From Notamacropus eugenii (taxonomy: Eukaryota > Chordata > Mammalia > Diprotodontia > Macropodidae): DNA of 64,000 nt. The stretch is from NCBI RefSeq assembly GCF_028372415.1, contig NC_092875.1:436549377-436613376 (forward strand). The letters run 5' to 3'. This document shows, one piece after another, positions 2,546 to 45,926 of this stretch. The number at the start of each line of letters is the position of its first letter. The first letter of the stretch is position 1. Under the pieces are notes generated by a model. That model saw nothing but the letters and a program-made list of their open reading frames with translations. It made no database searches and was not told the origin of the DNA. The position numbers were made by a program, and so were the translations under genes.

Positions 2546-3583
2546 TCATGCTTCTCTTGATTCTTGTGTTTGAAAGTCAAATTTTCTATTCATCTCTGGT
2601 TCTTTCATCAAGAATGCTTGAAAGTCCTCTATTTCATTGAATGACCATTTTTTCCCCTGATGTATTATACTCAGTTTTTCTGGGTAGGTGATTCTTGGTT
2701 TTATTCCTAGCTCCTTAGACCTCTGGAATATCATATTCCAAGCCCTCCAATCCCTTAGTGTAGAAGCTACTAGATCTTGCATTATGCTGAACGTGTTTCC
2801 ACAATACATGAATTGTTTCTTTCTGTCTGCTTCAACGTTTTCTCCTTGACCTGAGAACTCTGGAATTTGGCTGCAAAAATCTTAGGAATTTTCCATTTGG
2901 GATCTCTTTCAGGAGGTGATTGGTGGATTCTTTCAATATCTATTTTGCCCTGTGGTTCTAGAATATCAGGGAAATTTTCCTTGATAATTTCTTGAAAGGT
3001 GATGTCTAGGCTCTTTGTTAGATCATGGCTTTCAGGTAGTCTAATAATTTTCAAATTGTCCCTCATGGATCTATTTTTCCAGGTCAGTTGGTTTTCCAAT
3101 GAGATATTTCACATTGTCTGCTATTTTTTTATTCCTTTGGTTTTGTTTTGTAATTTCTTGATTTTTCATAAAGTCATTAGCTTCCATGCACTTCATTCTA
3201 ATCTTTAAGGAATTGTTTTCTTCAGTGAGCTTTTGGACCTCCTTTTTCTTCTGGCCAATTCTGCTGTTTAAGGCATTCTTCTCCTCATTGACTTTTTGGA
3301 TCTCTTTTGCCATCTGGGTTAGTCTATTTTTAAGGTGTTATTTTCTTCAGCATTTTTGGGTCCCCTTTAGCAAGCAGTTTTGTTGTTTTTCATTGTTTTC
3401 TTGTATCACTCTTTTTTCTCTTCCCAATACTTGCTCTACTTCTCTTACTTGATTTTCAAAATCCTTTTTGAGCTCTTCCAAGACCTGAGACCAATTCATG
3501 ATTTTTCTTGGAGGTTTTGGATGTAGGAGCTTTGACTTTGTTATTTTCTTCTGTTTGTATATTTTGGTCTTCATTGTCACCAA
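2546..3583 (-). pseudogene. HAL1 ORF1 remnant (L1 ORF1p-like RNA-binding protein)
   Basis: L1 ORF1 protein is a trimeric, nucleic-acid-binding chaperone. Fragments in consecutive pieces give its order: an N-terminal segment with 'MNWSQVLEELKKDFENQ' (3,583-3,347), a heptad-rich coiled coil with 'KKKEVQKLTEENNSLKIR' (3,313-3,071), an RRM-like middle with 'FPDILEPQGKIDIERIHQ' (3,099-2,782), and a C-terminal domain with 'ELGIKPRITYPEKLSI' (2,809-2,546). Stops and frame changes separate the pieces, so it is not translatable as one protein. The C-terminal 'RITYPEKLS' corresponds to the well-conserved end of L1 ORF1. Confidence 0.82.
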
Positions 3584-6922: not shown

Positions 6923-6980
6923 TGGGGAATGATAAAATTCTTGAGTTCAAATGGGGAATGATAGAATCCTTGAGTTCAAA
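6923..6980. repeat. 29-bp tandem duplication, two copies
   Basis: Units 6,923-6,951 and 6,952-6,980 both read 'tggggaatga..a.aat.cttgagttcaaa' and differ at two positions. A small local slippage event. Confidence 0.9.
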
Positions 6981-7019
6981 TGATCCATCAGCCTCAGACT
7001 TTCCTGGTAGGGAAGCTGG

Positions 7020-7735
7020 TCACCTGTACTTACAGGAATGTACCAACAGGCTTTTAAAAGCATTAAAAACTGAAGAAATGTAAGTAGGAATAAACACAGC
7101 TTTAAAGAAACTAAAGAGACAGACTGCGTTGCAGTTCTTTAGCTTTAGCTTAGAGAATTGCTATTCACAATACTTCACCACATGGCAGGAGTTTGTTTGT
7201 TTGTTTGTGAGAGGCACGAAGGGGACATTGAAGCCACCAGATGCTGCAATGGGTCTTGTAGTTCGCTAGGGGTCATTTACAGCAGAGTGGCTGATACACA
7301 GCAAGATGGAGTCAACACGTCCCGAGCTAGGCGGTTTCTAATGAGGGGAAGGTCTATGTGTTACACAAGCATTTCAGGGAAATTCATGGTGCAATACTAA
7401 CAGGTTTGGTAAGGGATGTAAAGGCAAGGGAGGGCAGGAAGCTCACTGGAAGTGATCAACCTCAGGAGATTTGCTGAAGTCTATCTCTGGGATTCCTTTG
7501 GGGAAGGTTATTTTGTCCATTTCTCCCACAAAAGCAAGTTGGAGGAGTGAGTCAAATCCAGAAAAAGAGAGGGAATGGTTTTATCCTACTCTGTATCAGC
7601 TCTATTATATATAACAAAACAACAGCTACTAAGGAGTTTTTCTCTATATGCAGTATAGGCCACAATATTTGCAATGGCCTTTCACATGTTACTTATGTTG
7701 ATCCAGATGAATTACTATAAGCTAGTACTATAAAC
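7020..7735. other. No recognised repeat
   Basis: Includes a short (GTTT)n run near 7,192-7,207 and slightly higher GC around 7,215-7,340. The reading frame from 7,158 has no familiar motif and is probably chance. Confidence 0.4.
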
Positions 7736-22375: not shown

Positions 22376-23637
22376 TCAGAAAAATTCCTCACGCACTGTG
22401 GTTGTTACTGTATACAGTGATCTCATGGCTCTGCTCCTTTCACTCAGCATCAGTTCATATACGTCCTTCCAGGACTCTCTGAAGTCTTCCTGTTTATCAT
22501 TTCTTATAATATAATAGTATTCCATTGCATTCATATACCACAACTTGTTCAGACATTCCCCAATTGATGTGCATCCCCTCGATTTCCAGTTCTTGGCTAC
22601 CACAAAAAGAGCTGCTATAAATATTTTTATACATGTGGGACCATTTCCCATTTTATGATTTCTTTGGGATACAGCCCTAGAAGCAATATTGTTGGGTCAA
22701 ATGGTATCCACATTTTTGTAGCCCATTGGGCATAGTTCCAAATTGCTATCCAGAATGGTTGGATCAGCATGTAGCTCCACCATAAATGAGTTAGTGTTCC
22801 AACTCTTCCACATCTTCTCCAACATTAGCCTTCTTCCTGTTTTATCATGTTAGCCAATCTGATAGGTGTGATGTGGTACTTCAGAGTTGTTTTGATTTGC
22901 ATCTCTCTAATCAATAGTGATTTAGAACATTTTTTCATGTGACTATAGATAGCTTTAATTTCTTCCTCTGAAAGCTCCCTGTTCGTATCCTTTGACCAAT
23001 TATCAATTGGGGAATGACTTGTATTCTTGTACATTTGACTCAGTTCTCTACATATTTTAGAAATGAGGCCTTTATCAGAGATGCTAGTTGCAAAAGTTCT
23101 TTTCCAGTTTTCTGCTCCCCTCCTAATCTTGGTTGCATTGGGTTTGTGCAAAAACTTTTCAATTTAATGTAATCAAAATTATCCATTTTATACTTCCTAA
23201 AGTTCTCTATCTCTTGTTGGGTTGTACATTTCTACATTTTCCACAAATTGAGCAAATGCACTATTCCTTGTTCCCCTAACTTGTTTATAGTGTCAGTCTT
23301 TATACCCAGATCATGTATCCATTTGGACTTTATTCTTGTGGGCAGTGTCAGGAATTAGTCTATGCACAGTTTCTGCCACACTGTTATCTAGTTTTCCTAG
23401 CAGTTTTAGTCAAACAGTGAGTTCTTACCCCAGAAGCTGGGGTCCTTGGGTTTATCAATCAGATTGATATATTCATTCACTACTGTGTCTTGAGTACCTA
23501 ACCTCTCCTCTGTTTCTTAGCCAGTACCAAGTGATTTTGATAATTGCTACTTTATAATACAATTTGATATTTGGACACCTTCCCTAGCATTTCTTTTCAT
23601 TAATTCCCTTGACATTCTGGAACTTTTGTTCTTCCAG
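22376..23637 (-). pseudogene. L1 ORF2 C-terminal region (broken)
   Basis: Downstream part of L1 ORF2 after the RT domain. 23,151-22,825 holds 'ISDKGLISKICRELSQMY' and 'MKKCSKSLLIREMQIKTT'. 22,651-22,376 holds 'IFIAALFVVAKNWKSRG' and 'LWYMNAMEYYYIIRND'. Both are hallmark L1 ORF2 C-terminal blocks in the correct order. 23,637-23,160 is also homologous ('IKSKWIHDLGIKTDTINK' in one frame) but carries frameshifts and stops, so no active protein is possible. Confidence 0.88.
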
Positions 23638-24553
23638 ATGAATAGAGATACAAAAAATTTAAATAAGATATTAGCAAAAAGAATACAGCAACTTATCACG
23701 AGTATAATACATTATGATCAGGTAGGATTTATAGCAGGAATGCAGGGCTGGTTCAATATTAGGAAAACTATCAGCATTATTGATCCTATCAACAACAAAA
23801 CTAACAGAAACCATATGATTATCTCAATAGAGGCAGAAAAAATTTTGGATAAAATACAACACCCATCCTATTGAAAACACTGGAGAATGTAGGAATAAAT
23901 GGAGCCTTCCATAAAATAACGAGCAGTATCTACCTAAAACCAGCAGCAAACATTATATGCAATAGGGTTAAGGTAGATGTATTTCCAACAAGATCAGAGG
24001 TGAAATAAGGATATCTATTATCACCACTGTTATTCAATATGGTACTAGACATAATAGCTTTAGCAATAAAAGAAGAAAAAAATTGAAGGAATTAGAATAG
24101 ACAAAGAAGAAACTGTTATCACTCTTTGCAGATGATATGATGATATACTTAGAGAATCAAGTAAAAAAAGCTACTTGAAATAATAAACAACACTGGCAAA
24201 ATTTCAGGTTACAAAATAAACCCACATAAATCATTTGCATTTCTATATATTTCTAATAAAGCCCAACAGCAAGAGATAGAAAGAGAAACCCCTTTTAAAA
24301 CTATGGTAGACACTATAAAATATCTGAGAGTCTACCTGCCAAAGCAAACCTAGGGACTATATGAACACAATTACAAAACACTTTTCATACAGATAAAGTC
24401 AGATCTAGGTAAGTGGAAAAATATCAGTTGTTCATGGGTAGACTGAGCTAATGTAATAAAAATGACAATTCTACCTAAATTAATTTACTTATTCAGTAAC
24501 ATACCAATCAAACTACCAGAAAAATATTTTCTAGAGCTAGAAAAAATAATAGC
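23638..24553 (+). pseudogene. L1 ORF2 reverse-transcriptase segment (inverted, broken)
   Basis: RT domain of L1 ORF2. The first 83 codons are open ('[13 protein letters not shown]', '[18 protein letters not shown]', '[18 protein letters not shown]'). The catalytic box FADD is intact in another frame at 24,125-24,136 ('LFADDMMIYLENQ'), and 'LPKLIYLFSNIPIKLPEKYF' lies at 24,465-24,524. Frameshifts near 23,875 and later split it. It lies opposite to the rest of its own element. Confidence 0.9.
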
Positions 24554-32800: not shown

Positions 32801-33032
32801 AGGCCAACACCTATAAACTGAGTGAATTTTAAGATATTTTCCTTCGAAACACTGTTCTCTTCATTCAGTAACTTTGTATGATAACACAAGTATGTAATTC
32901 CTAGAGAAGAATCCCTCCGGAATTCATGCTGACAGTTTTAAAAAGTAATACTATGTTTAATCACATTTTTATTTATTTTGTGAACTGTTTGCCAATTACA
33001 TTACATTTACTGACAACAAGTAGCAAAATTTT

Positions 33033-33262
33033 GGGGCAGCTAGGTGGTGTAGTGGATAGAAAGCTCTGCCTGGAGTCAGGAAGACCTGAGTTCAAATGCA
33101 GCCTAGTCACTGGGCAAGTCACTTCATCTTGTTTCCCTCTGTTTCCTCATCTGTAAAATAATCTAGAGAAGGCAATGGCAAACCACTCCAAATCTTTGGC
33201 AGAAAAACTCCAAAGGGAGTCACAAGGAGTGGGGAACGCAACTGAAATGACTGAACATTACA
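33033..33262 (+). repeat. tRNA-type marsupial SINE, plus, full length
   Basis: Head 'ggggcagctaggtggtgtag', 'ggagtcaggaagacctgagt', then 'ggcaaaccactccaaatctt' and 'gggagtcacaagga', ending 'ctgaaatgactgaaca'. Confidence 0.95.
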
Positions 33263-34428: not shown

Positions 34429-34495
34429 AGCTTTATTGGAGAAACTGCAGATGTCAGCCTAATAGTTTTTAAGATCCCCTAATTTACAGTCTCTG

Positions 34496-34741
34496 GGGGC
34501 AGTTAGGTGAAGCAGTGGATAGAGTGCTGGGCCTGGAGTCAGAAAGACTCATCTCCCTGAGTTCAAATCTGGCCTTTGACACTTATTAGCTATGTGACCC
34601 TGGGCAAGTCACTTCACCCTATTTGCCTCAGTTTCCTCATCTGGAGAAGGAAATGGCAAATCACTCCAGGATCGTTGCCAAGAAAACCCCAAATGGGGTC
34701 ACGGAGAATTGGACACAACCGAAATGATTGAACAGTAATAA
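34496..34741 (+). repeat. tRNA-type marsupial SINE, plus, full length
   Basis: 'gggggcagttaggtgaagca', 'gtgctgggcctggagtcaga', 'gaccctgggcaagtcacttc' and 'ccccaaatggggtcacggag'. One of the best-preserved copies. Confidence 0.95.
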
Positions 34742-34859
34742 GTGTATAGTCTCAAACTGGCAGAGCTGAGAATAAAGTTTTTCATTTTCAGTTTCCAAAC
34801 TTGGGCTGAAGTTTCCACGATTTGGGGCTGTCTTTTGTTGCAGGCTCCAGCCAACAGTC

Positions 34860-40804: not shown

Positions 40805-42880
40805 AATCTCACCTAATTTCTCTAACCCTCTTCCCCTTCAATTTTACTGTTGGGTAAGATAGATTTCTGTACACAAATGAATGTACATACATGTGTTTAT
40901 ATGTGTGTATACGTATGTGTGTCTTCTTCCCTCTTTGAACCAATTATGATGAGAATGAGATTCAAGCATTCCCCCCTTTATTCCTACTCATGTAAAATCT
41001 CTTCCTTCTGTACCTCTTCTTTGTGAGATAATTCTCCTCTTTCTTCATCTCCCTTATGCCTTCTCCCAGTGAATCCCTCTTTGTAACCTATCCATTTTTC
41101 TTTTAGATTATCCCAACTTAACTGATTCACTCCCTCTGTCTATAGAGTCCTTCTAACTGCCCTAATAATGACAAAGTTCTTAGGAATTACATTATCATCT
41201 TTCCATAAAAGATGTTAGCAGCTTCATCTTATCGATTCCTTTATGATTTCTCTTTCATGTTTACCTTGTTATGATTCTTTCAAGTTTTGTGTTTGAAAGT
41301 CAAATTTTCTATTCCTCTCTGGTTTTTGGATCAGAATGTTTGAAAGTCCCCCATTTCATTAAATATCCTTTTTTATCTCCCTAAAGGATTATACCTAGTT
41401 TTGCTGGGTAGATTATTTATTCTTGGTTGTAATCTCTTTTGATTTTTGGAATGTCATATTACAAGCCTTTCATTCCTTTGACATGGTAGCTACTAAATCT
41501 TATATGATTCCATGTTATTTGAAAGGTTTCTTTCTGACTACTTAAAGTGCTTTCTCTTTGACCTCTAGAAGCTCTGGAATTTGTCTATAAGATTCCTGGG
41601 AGTTTTCATTTGGAGTATTTTTCAGGAGATAGTCAATGGATTCTTTTAATTTCCATTTTACCCTCTGGTTCTAAGATATCTAAGTTTTCCTTTATAATTT
41701 CCTTAATTATGGTGTCTAGGCTCTTTGTTTGATTGTAGCTTCCAGGTAGTCCAAAAATTCTTAAATTATCTCTCCTCAATCTATTTTTCCAGGCCTGTTG
41801 TTTTTCTGATGAGTTAATTCACATTTTCTTCTATTTTTTTTTCATTCTTTTGGCTTTGTCTTATTTTTTCTTGATGTCTCATGGAGGCATTAGCTTCTAG
41901 TTGTCCAATTCTAATTTTTAAGAAATTATTTTCTTCAGTGAGCCTTTGGACCTCTTTTGTCATTTGACCAATATTTCTTTTTAAGGCATTATTTTCTTCA
42001 GTGGTTTTTGAGCCTCTTTTACCAAACTGTTGTCTTTTCATAATTTTCTTGTATTGCTCTTATTTCTTTTATCAATTTTCCACTTATTTGATTTTTTACA
42101 ATAACTTTAGCTCCTCCAAGAATTCTTCTTGAATTTGTGTCCAATTCATATTTTTTATTTGATTCTTTGCTTGTAGCTGTTTTGACATCATTGTATTCTT
42201 TTGAGTTTATGTCTTGATCTTCCTGCTACCATACTAACTTTTTATGATCATGTTTTTTCTCAGCCTGTTTTTTTCTTTAAACATTATGTTAAAGATGGGC
42301 TCTGTTCCTGGGACAGGAGTAGGTTGGAGGGACACTGTTCCAAGCTTCAATCATTATTTGCACTGCTGTTTTCAGAGTTAAATTCTTCCAAGGTAGTATG
42401 ATCCAGGGAAAGATAGGAGCACTGTTTTCCTGATCTGTGTTCTGGTCTCTAGCCAGGAAGGGAATTTTGATTCCTTGCAGCTGAAAGCAATGCTTCTCCT
42501 GAGGGCTCTTGTTTTCTTGGGACCAAAAGCACTAGTGCTCTTCAGGCTCCCTGCTTCCTTGGGATTGCAAGAACTCATCTACACCATCGAACCATGACCC
42601 AGAAATTAGTACAGTCATTGGAATTGCTAAGCAGTACCCAGTCCTGCTGCCAGAGCTGCCACAAGGATCCCCTGTCATCTCCTTCTGACCAGTTACCAGG
42701 TCTCCTTACCATCATTGGCTTGAGAGCTCCTGATCCTGTTGTTGCTGTCTCCAAAGCCCATCAGGTGGTTTCTGGACTGACTGCCACCCCAGCGTCAAAA
42801 ACCTTGCCTTCCAACCTCCTAAGTTTTTGGTGGGCTGGACAAAACCCTAAACTTTTGCTGGTTCTGATGTTTCAGAATTT
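40805..42880 (-). mobile_element. HAL1 retrotransposon, 3' end missing
   Basis: 5' UTR at 42,880 to about 42,240, ORF1 remnant to about 41,285, then a pyrimidine-rich (plus strand) 3' UTR to 40,805. There is no terminal T-run, so the last stretch including the tail is lost. Same gene order as the 1.7 kb copy, without ORF2. Confidence 0.75.
41285..42240 (-). pseudogene. HAL1 ORF1 remnant
   Basis: An open stretch at 42,041-41,814 reads as a coiled coil: 'NNALKRNIGQMTKEVQRL' and 'ENNFLKIRIGQLEANASM', clearly the same heptad block as in the 3.1-3.3 kb copy. The RRM and C-terminal regions (41,700-41,290) are present at DNA level ('gtttgaaagtcaaattttct') but full of stops. Confidence 0.8.
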
Positions 42881-43428: not shown

Positions 43429-43680
43429 GCTGGACATAGGTACACACCTGGAGTCCCTGCTGCCAGAGAGCTGAGGCTGGCGAATCACTTGCGTTCAGGA
43501 TTTCTGAACTGAAATGGGACCAAAACTAAAATCAAGTGTCTGCACTAAGACCAGCCAGGAGTCATCAGGCTGCCTAAGGAGGGGCAAACCAGCCCAGTTT
43601 GGTGCTGACCTGCAATGGGATTCGGCCTGTGAGTGGCCACTGCACTTGCTGCCTGGGCAAGATAGGGAGACCCAGGCTCC
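43429..43680 (+). pseudogene. 7SL (SRP) RNA-derived sequence, full span with internal deletions
   Basis: 7SL RNA is the scaffold of the signal recognition particle. The whole molecule can be followed: 5' Alu-domain start 'gctggacataggtacaca', 'gagctgaggctggcgaatca', 'gtgtctgcactaag', 'gctgcctaaggaggggcaaa', 'cctgtgagtggccactgcac' and 'gcctgggcaagatagggaga'. Two gaps of about 20 nt each remove parts of the S domain, including the apical region where SRP54 binds. Many substitutions mean it is not functional. An A-rich tail follows, so it is a retroposed copy. Confidence 0.88.
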
Positions 43681-43722
43681 AGTGATAATAACAATAATTC
43701 CAACAATGGTAATAATAATGTA
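43681..43722 (+). repeat. A-rich (AAT/AAC)n tail of the 7SL-derived copy
   Basis: 'tgataataacaataattcca' and 'ggtaataataatg' directly follow the 7SL 3' end, as expected for a decayed poly(A) tail of a retroposed RNA. Confidence 0.7.
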
Positions 43723-43724
43723 GG

Positions 43725-44285
43725 TAATGTATTGTCATAGACATAGGCTAGGGAGAAATAACATTTTTCAAAGAGAACTTGTCGATCAACCTGCATTACC
43801 TGACTGTATGATTTTAATGAATGGCTGAGACTTTCTATTACCCAGCTTGGTGACAGATGGCTTTAAAAACTGAAGGAATTTATTGGAATCTCTTTATAAC
43901 ATCATGTTCCATAGATACCAGTACAAGATAAAGCATGACTTGTGTTGGCCTCTGTCCAAGTAGGGTTATTTACAAGAGTAAGAAAATAGCCTCCTTTTAA
44001 GGCAACTTCACTTCTAAGTTGTCCAGTTCATGTATCCTAAGACCATTATACCAGCCTCCATCATTATACATGGAGAAATGCTATTACATCTTTATATAGA
44101 GAGAAGCTTTGAAAGATTTTTTAAAGAATAAAATCTAACCAAATTCTACTGCTAATTGATTTTTAACTGCATATATCCTTAAGTTTTATACATCACAATC
44201 AATATCATCAAAAGAAAATTTCAGTGGTTAAGCCCATCTTCCCTCAGTTAAACTCTTTTTTATTAACAAGTAAAAGAATGACAAT
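43725..44285. other. No recognised repeat
   Basis: AT-rich segment separating the two 7SL-related copies. Confidence 0.35.
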
Positions 44286-44291
44286 AAAAAG

Positions 44292-44388
44292 AGTGGTGAC
44301 TCACTTGAGTTCAGAATTTCTGAACTGCAACAGGATATAAAATTAATCAGATGTTTACCCTAAGACCACCTCCTGTATGGTGAGACCT
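44292..44388 (+). pseudogene. 7SL RNA-derived fragment, second copy, S domain missing
   Basis: 'gactcacttgagttcagaat', 'ttctgaactgcaacaggata', 'gtttaccctaagacca', then directly 'cctgtatggtgagacct'. It joins the 5' domain to the 3' domain, omitting the S domain. It shares non-7SL bases with the first copy ('tttctgaactg' and 'ctaagacca', where 7SL has 'gttctgggctg' and 'ctaagttcg'). The 5' end is missing and the 3' end is cut by a SINE. Confidence 0.7.
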
Positions 44389-44390
44389 AG

Positions 44391-44622
44391 GAGCAGGTAA
44401 GTGAGTGCAGTGAATAGAGTGCTAGGTCTGGAGTCGGGAAGAACTGACTCAGACATTTACTAACTATGTGACCCTGCGCAAGTCACTTAACCCCATTTGC
44501 CTCAATTTCCTCATCTATAAAATGAACTGGAGAAGGAAATGACAAGCTACTCCAGTATCTTTGCCAAGAAAGCTCCAAATGAGGTCATGAAGAGTCAGCC
44601 AAGACTCAACAACAACCATCCC
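44391..44622 (+). repeat. tRNA-type marsupial SINE, plus
   Basis: 'gagcaggtaagtgagtgcag', 'gtgctaggtctggagtcggg', 'ctccagtatctttgccaaga' and 'actcaacaacaac'. First of a head-to-tail pair. Confidence 0.92.
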
Positions 44623-44637
44623 AACCCTTATTTTAAG

Positions 44638-44890
44638 GGCAGCTAGATGGCACAGTGGATAAAGTGCCAGCCATGGAATCAGTAAAGATTCACTTTCCTG
44701 AGTGCAGCCCCAGACACTTACTAGCTGGGTAGCCCTGGGCAAATCACTTCACTCTGTTTGCCTCAGTTTCCTCCTCTGAGTTGGAAAGAGAAATGGCAAG
44801 CCACTTCAGTATCTTTTGCCAAGAAAACCCCAAATGGGGTCATGAAGAGTCAGACATGACTGAAATAACTCAACAGCAAAAACAGTAACA
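44638..44890 (+). repeat. tRNA-type marsupial SINE, plus
   Basis: 'ggcagctagatggcacagtg', 'ccagccatggaatcagtaaa', 'ccccaaatggggtcatgaag' and 'aactcaacagcaaaaac'. Second of the pair. Confidence 0.95.
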
Positions 44891-45675: not shown

Positions 45676-45926
45676 TTTTAGCTAAATAGTACAGTAAATA
45701 GAGTGTTGGGCCTGGAATAGGGAACACCTGAGTTTAAGTCCAGCCTCAGACGCTTACTAGCTGTGTGACCCTGGGAAAGTCACTGAAACCTATTTGCCTC
45801 AGTTTCTTCATTTGTAAAATGAGCTGGAGAAGGAAACGGCAAACCACTCCAGTATCTTTGCCAAGAAAATCCCCACGGGAGTCATGAATAGTTGGACATG
45901 ACTGAAAAACGACTAAATTACAACTA
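45676..45926 (+). repeat. tRNA-type marsupial SINE, plus
   Basis: 'tagctaaatagtacagtaaa', 'gtgttgggcctggaataggg', 'tgtgtgaccctgggaaagtc' and 'tccccacgggagtcatgaat'. Confidence 0.92.

Follow-up and report, generated by a model that had tools for sequence, protein, structure and literature searches.

Two 7SL (SRP RNA)-derived sequences in the window (the whole stretch of DNA that was analysed, 64 kb in length), referred to as copy 1 and copy 2, have in common more bases foreign to 7SL than independent decay predicts. We put at roughly one in two the probability that both are retrocopies of the P7SL_MD type, made from a single diverged 7SL source that was itself transcribed. In favour of this reading are the alignment of copy 1 with the whole RF00017 model, the A-rich stretch behind it, and the excess of non-CpG sharing between the copies. 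The main rival to this reading is an old local duplication.

Copy 1 (43429..43681, plus strand) aligns with RF00017 over the whole model, positions 1-299, at 36.8 bits (E = 6.4e-6). The gathering score of RF00017, its curated cut-off, is 70, and copy 1 is therefore degenerate. A functional SRP RNA gene would lie above this cut-off and fold intact; the RNA fold of copy 1 is no better than that of shuffled sequences (z 0.27; 116/200 shuffles at least equal). Local alignment with human 7SL gives a score of 169, compared with a maximum of 38 in 500 shuffles, and differences at 51/228 aligned bases (36/201 outside CpG and 15/27 at CpG). At columns 18, 24, 30, and 31 the human 7SL reference agrees, by eye, with the RF00017 consensus. 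Internal losses are found near 7SL 120-157, with a placement that varies by aligner, and near 7SL 198-221, while the segment 166-197 is retained. The sequence following copy 1 on the plus strand (about 43682..43720) is A-rich without a clean A run, and probably represents its decayed poly(A) tail. The best candidate for a target-site duplication at copy 1, with 11/14 matches, does not exceed chance (P = 0.33 with shuffled sequence and 0.11 with window controls). Copy 1 is a decayed, dead full-length 7SL retrocopy, and the sequence-only reading, where 43,429-43,680 was said to follow the whole of 7SL with two internal gaps and an A-rich tail (here 43,682-43,720), stands on this point.

Copy 2 (44294..44387, plus strand, the end being approximate) is a 7SL-derived fragment that spans 7SL 53 to about 139, as judged from a profile match and from its relation to copy 1. 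When copy 1 is the query, copy 2 is recovered by blastn (E = 1e-10; 76 aligned columns, 76% alike) and by nhmmer (E = 2e-7), in agreement with the earlier description of 44,292-44,388 as a shorter relative. The match to human 7SL alone is weak (nhmmer E = 0.0084, blastn E = 0.14). The plain pairwise score of 38 to 7SL exceeds those of 500/500 shuffles of the same stretch (maximum 29), and a score of 40, i.e., above that of copy 2, was reached somewhere in 1/6 shuffled whole windows. A 7SL plus copy 1 profile scores copy 2 at 34.1 bits (E = 4.9e-10), where the best of 20 shuffled windows gives 5.9 bits; the profile alignment extends to 44,397, and its last bases were assigned to the head of an adjoining SINE. 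Since copy 2 is weakly matched by 7SL alone and strongly by copy 1, its 7SL identity depends mostly on copy 1.

Copy 2 has neither the 5′ end nor the 3′ end of 7SL, nor a tail. It stops at about 44,388, where a SINE begins (44388..44612, plus strand, 3′ end approximate) that we take to be of tRNA/CORE type with an RTE-like tail; the furthest-5′ similar SINE copies in the window align from 44,387-44,395 of this element. Searches for a further 7SL remainder past the SINEs downstream of copy 2, by blastn/nhmmer and by profile, gave nothing significant. The 22 bases past CTAAG in copy 2 contain TATGGTGA, eight bases that match the 7SL S domain exactly and in register (P = 0.0009 relative to shuffles and 0.0016 relative to random window positions, with offsets ≤2 allowed). 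Reading the end of copy 2 instead as the 7SL 3′ end, which would create an Alu-like junction, gives a match of 9/11 (P = 0.045), weaker than the in-register S-domain reading. Because the octamer lies in S-domain register, we see no Alu-type deletion common to the two copies, and copy 2 is probably not Alu-like. The contention that copy 2 is an Alu-like arrangement with the S domain missing is not borne out, in view of both the octamer (P about 0.001) and the position of the end at the start of the SINE. The alignment around the CTAAG/S-domain point is ambiguous, and as an alternative, the deletion in copy 1 that joins CTAA to GACC in a pairwise alignment might be common to copy 2. The octamer is absent from copy 1, and copy 2 was therefore probably not copied from copy 1 in its present form.

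The bases common to the two copies include those of a non-7SL segment that reads gttcaggatttctgaactg in copy 1 (43493..43511, plus strand) and gttcagaatttctgaactg in copy 2 (44309..44327, plus strand). It contains 6-base arms, GTTCAG and CTGAAC, that are perfectly complementary; the corresponding arms in 7SL pair at 5/6 positions, and three common changes convert the imperfect GTCCAG/CTGGGC into the perfect pair. A single event can correct one such arm to match the other, and the arm sites are therefore perhaps not independent. An A-rich insertion is likewise common to both copies. The three-way alignment of 7SL, copy 1, and copy 2 has 72 columns up to CTAAG, of which 4 gapped ones were dropped to leave 68. 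Over these columns, in a joint alignment of a kind that can favour agreement between copies 1 and 2, the copies agree with each other at 52 positions, copy 1 with 7SL at 46 (22/68 columns differ), and copy 2 with 7SL at 43. Both copies carry the same non-7SL base at 14 of the 68 columns, 9/58 non-CpG and 5/10 CpG, against 2.07 and 2.50, respectively, to be expected if the copies had decayed independently at the rates observed. The non-CpG excess has a P value of 2e-4; the CpG excess, 5/10 compared with 2.50, is not significant (P = 0.08). Counting the shared sites in the null rates makes the test conservative, whereas the joint alignment acts in the opposite direction. The excess persists without the palindrome arms (6/55, P = 0.0016), without the insertion block (6/52, P = 0.003), and with both removed (3/49, P = 0.03).

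The sequence-only reading had listed 'tttctgaactg', 'ctaagacca', and an A-rich replacement among the common non-7SL bases, and these are seen, the last as an A-rich insertion, in the three-way alignment. It had also proposed descent of both copies from one 7SL-derived element; the excess of common bases (9/58 relative to 2.07, P = 2e-4) supports shared descent from something other than 7SL itself, and the Alu-like structure that formed part of the proposal is not supported. Overall, the observation largely holds and its interpretation is partly supported. Common changes away from 7SL are also a feature of SINE1-type elements, and are found here at 9/58 compared with 2.07, a pattern that local duplication would mimic. 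Stretching the test four columns beyond CTAAG gives 11/60 non-CpG (P = 3e-5), a value left unused as the alignment is uncertain there. We make no claim for a divergence hot spot in copy 1 (P = 0.31 with pairwise alignment, 0.06-0.08 with the three-way alignment for the block).

As judged from the sequences, a single altered source accounts for the common bases better than does direct copying of 7SL on two occasions, and it is the most likely origin because these bases are absent from 7SL. On this account, RNA polymerase III would have produced a 7SL-like RNA with a 3′ A tract, L1 enzymes would have inserted it into the genome by reverse transcription, and the resulting copies would have decayed into the old, dead retrocopies seen today. 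The source would be a diverged 7SL copy, itself transcribed, rather than the functional 7SL gene as direct parent of each copy. L1-type fragments lie in the window, and we counted them in choosing the best explanation: an L1 ORF1 fragment with a dsRBD-like domain (2546-2878, minus strand, E = 3.7e-7) and a reverse transcriptase fragment (RVT_1, 23521-23871, plus strand, E = 1.5e-6) that at 28.5 bits just misses the curated cut-off of 29.6. Several observations speak against this account. No convincing target-site duplication is found at copy 1, copy 2 is without 3′ end and tail, unlike the usual 5′-truncated retrocopy, and the match of copy 2 to 7SL alone is marginal.

A further argument against this account is that, at the published density, another copy would fall within 0.9 kb with a probability of only 0.8%, which adds weight to local duplication. 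In such a case, a retrocopy inserted at 43,429 would have decayed before a section of it was duplicated, with its orientation kept, to a point about 0.8 kb downstream, and the common bases would reflect the prior decay of copy 1. The shared orientation, the start-to-start spacing of 816, and the loss of both natural ends in copy 2 all fit this course of events. Outside a block of 76-95 bases, however, no similarity is seen, and comparison of 530-600 bases of sequence on either side of each copy gave only matches of 13-17 bases (E = 0.9-1). The octamer present in copy 2 and absent from copy 1 means that the duplication must predate that change. Local duplication also predicts even decay along copy 1, but the block differs at 22/68 columns (three-way alignment) and the rest at 32/161 (pairwise alignment), with P = 0.06; with pairwise alignment throughout, the non-CpG comparison gives P = 0.31. 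We consider local duplication somewhat unlikely.

It is distinctly less probable that the common bases belong to the host's own 7SL gene, or to a variant 7SL gene, with both copies as independent direct retrocopies. 7SL is strongly conserved among vertebrates, which we counted against this explanation, and at columns 18, 24, 30, and 31 the common bases are unlike both human 7SL and, by eye, the RF00017 consensus. A third 7SL-related fragment in the window (6963..7048) is of no help: by eye, its three readable common columns comprise one 7SL base, one shared base at a CpG, and one that depends on the alignment. A separate marsupial 7SL-derived SINE with an internal structure of its own, similar to Alu, would account for the common changes and the common A-rich insertion, and could draw on the match between the end of copy 2 and the 7SL 3′ end. 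The better-supported alignment is nevertheless without a common S-domain deletion, with 7SL 166-197 present in copy 1 and the S-domain octamer in copy 2, and we regard such an element as highly improbable. As a tentative extension of the single-source reading, the sequences allow that at least one lineage among the 7SL copies of marsupials had a source element of its own, recognisable by the GTTCAG..CTGAAC changes and the A-rich insertion. Such copies might in part constitute, beyond simple retrocopies of the 7SL gene, a true 7SL-derived SINE family that has kept S-domain sequence and originated independently of Alu/B1. A secondary source of this kind would be indicated by common changes away from 7SL in copies that are unlinked; copies 1 and 2 name the bases to look for, and as two linked copies they cannot decide the matter.

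Marsupial 7SL copies are already known by the thousand. For P7SL_MD, a marsupial 7SL retropseudogene family in Repbase, 12,942 copies are recorded from Tasmanian devil and 12,720 from wallaby (PMC3403934). The existence of such a family in marsupials is thus no surprise, and the opposite view taken in the sequence-only reading is out of date. As described, P7SL_MD is full-length 7SL plus poly(A), and its status as a true SINE is unsettled in print (PMC7245038). Copy 1 is alike in being full-length (RF00017 1-299), A-rich at its 3′ end, old, and decayed; where poly(A) would stand there is an A-rich stretch with no uninterrupted run of A. Copy 2 is a fragment, with no A-rich 3′ stretch. The host of both copies also appears to be a marsupial, to judge from the many long-tailed CORE-type SINE copies in the window, a type that points to marsupials. 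When compared by description only, P7SL_MD differs in being very similar to 7SL (PMC3403934), whereas copies 1 and 2 have 14 common non-7SL bases in 68 columns and copy 1 departs from 7SL at 22/68, a discrepancy that counts against assignment to this family. Among the matches listed in the literature search, no analysis of P7SL_MD diagnostic bases was found in titles and abstract openings, and the consulted passages of PMC5998507 have nothing on marsupial 7SL copies.

Other elements offer partial parallels. The SINE1 elements of Euarchontoglires (Alu, B1, FLAM, and kin) are 7SL-derived, as are copies 1 and 2, and descend from an internally deleted 7SL (PMC7245038); in copies 1 and 2 a common internal S-domain deletion is not established, with other alignments possible. 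P7SL_Cpo of guinea pig consists of full-length 7SL plus poly(A) retrocopies (PMC7245038), a likeness by description in another lineage. The hagfish element SINE1-1_EBu is 7SL-derived and lies outside Euarchontoglires, but its 7SL part is internally deleted and carries an RTE tail (PMC7245038), whereas copy 1 has S-domain sequence and an A-rich end. The tailless retropseudogenes of therian genomes are truncated inside the RNA and have no A tail (PMC5322556), and copy 2 is tailless too; the described set is, however, almost full-length at the 5′ end (PMC5322556), which copy 2 is not.

The third, weaker 7SL-related fragment (6963..7048, minus strand), corresponding to 7SL about 9-80, was detected with the 7SL plus copy 1 profile at 13.3 bits (E = 0.0011), compared with 5.9 bits for the best of 20 shuffled windows. 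Its pairwise score of 37 to 7SL is above 2000/2000 shuffles of its own stretch; per-strand maxima in six shuffled windows were 28-40, and 1/6 reached this score. The score to copy 1 was matched by 2/2000 shuffles. Its use as evidence on the common columns was dropped, as its state there depends on the alignment. A 29-base tandem duplication (6,923-6,982) extends at its edge into the fragment. Three 7SL fragments in 64 kb compare with 0.28 expected at the published Tasmanian devil density (P = 0.003), an excess to be read with the qualification that our search probably detects fainter copies than would a standard repeat mask, and that the window was chosen for its copies.

Sequence patterns searched in public collections (three in viral_contigs and one in genome_contigs) gave 0 matches. 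A TG/CA-rich stretch (40859-40922, plus strand) has mir-297 and mir-3149 matches that are far under the cut-offs and probably due to chance. Copies of the tRNA/CORE-type SINE with the long tail are found at 44388-44612, 44637-44880, 45680-45913, 34493-34746, 33029-33257, and elsewhere in the window, with pieces 60-91% alike. The window has a GC content of 38.1% and a CpG observed/expected ratio of 0.12, i.e., a strong CpG depletion.
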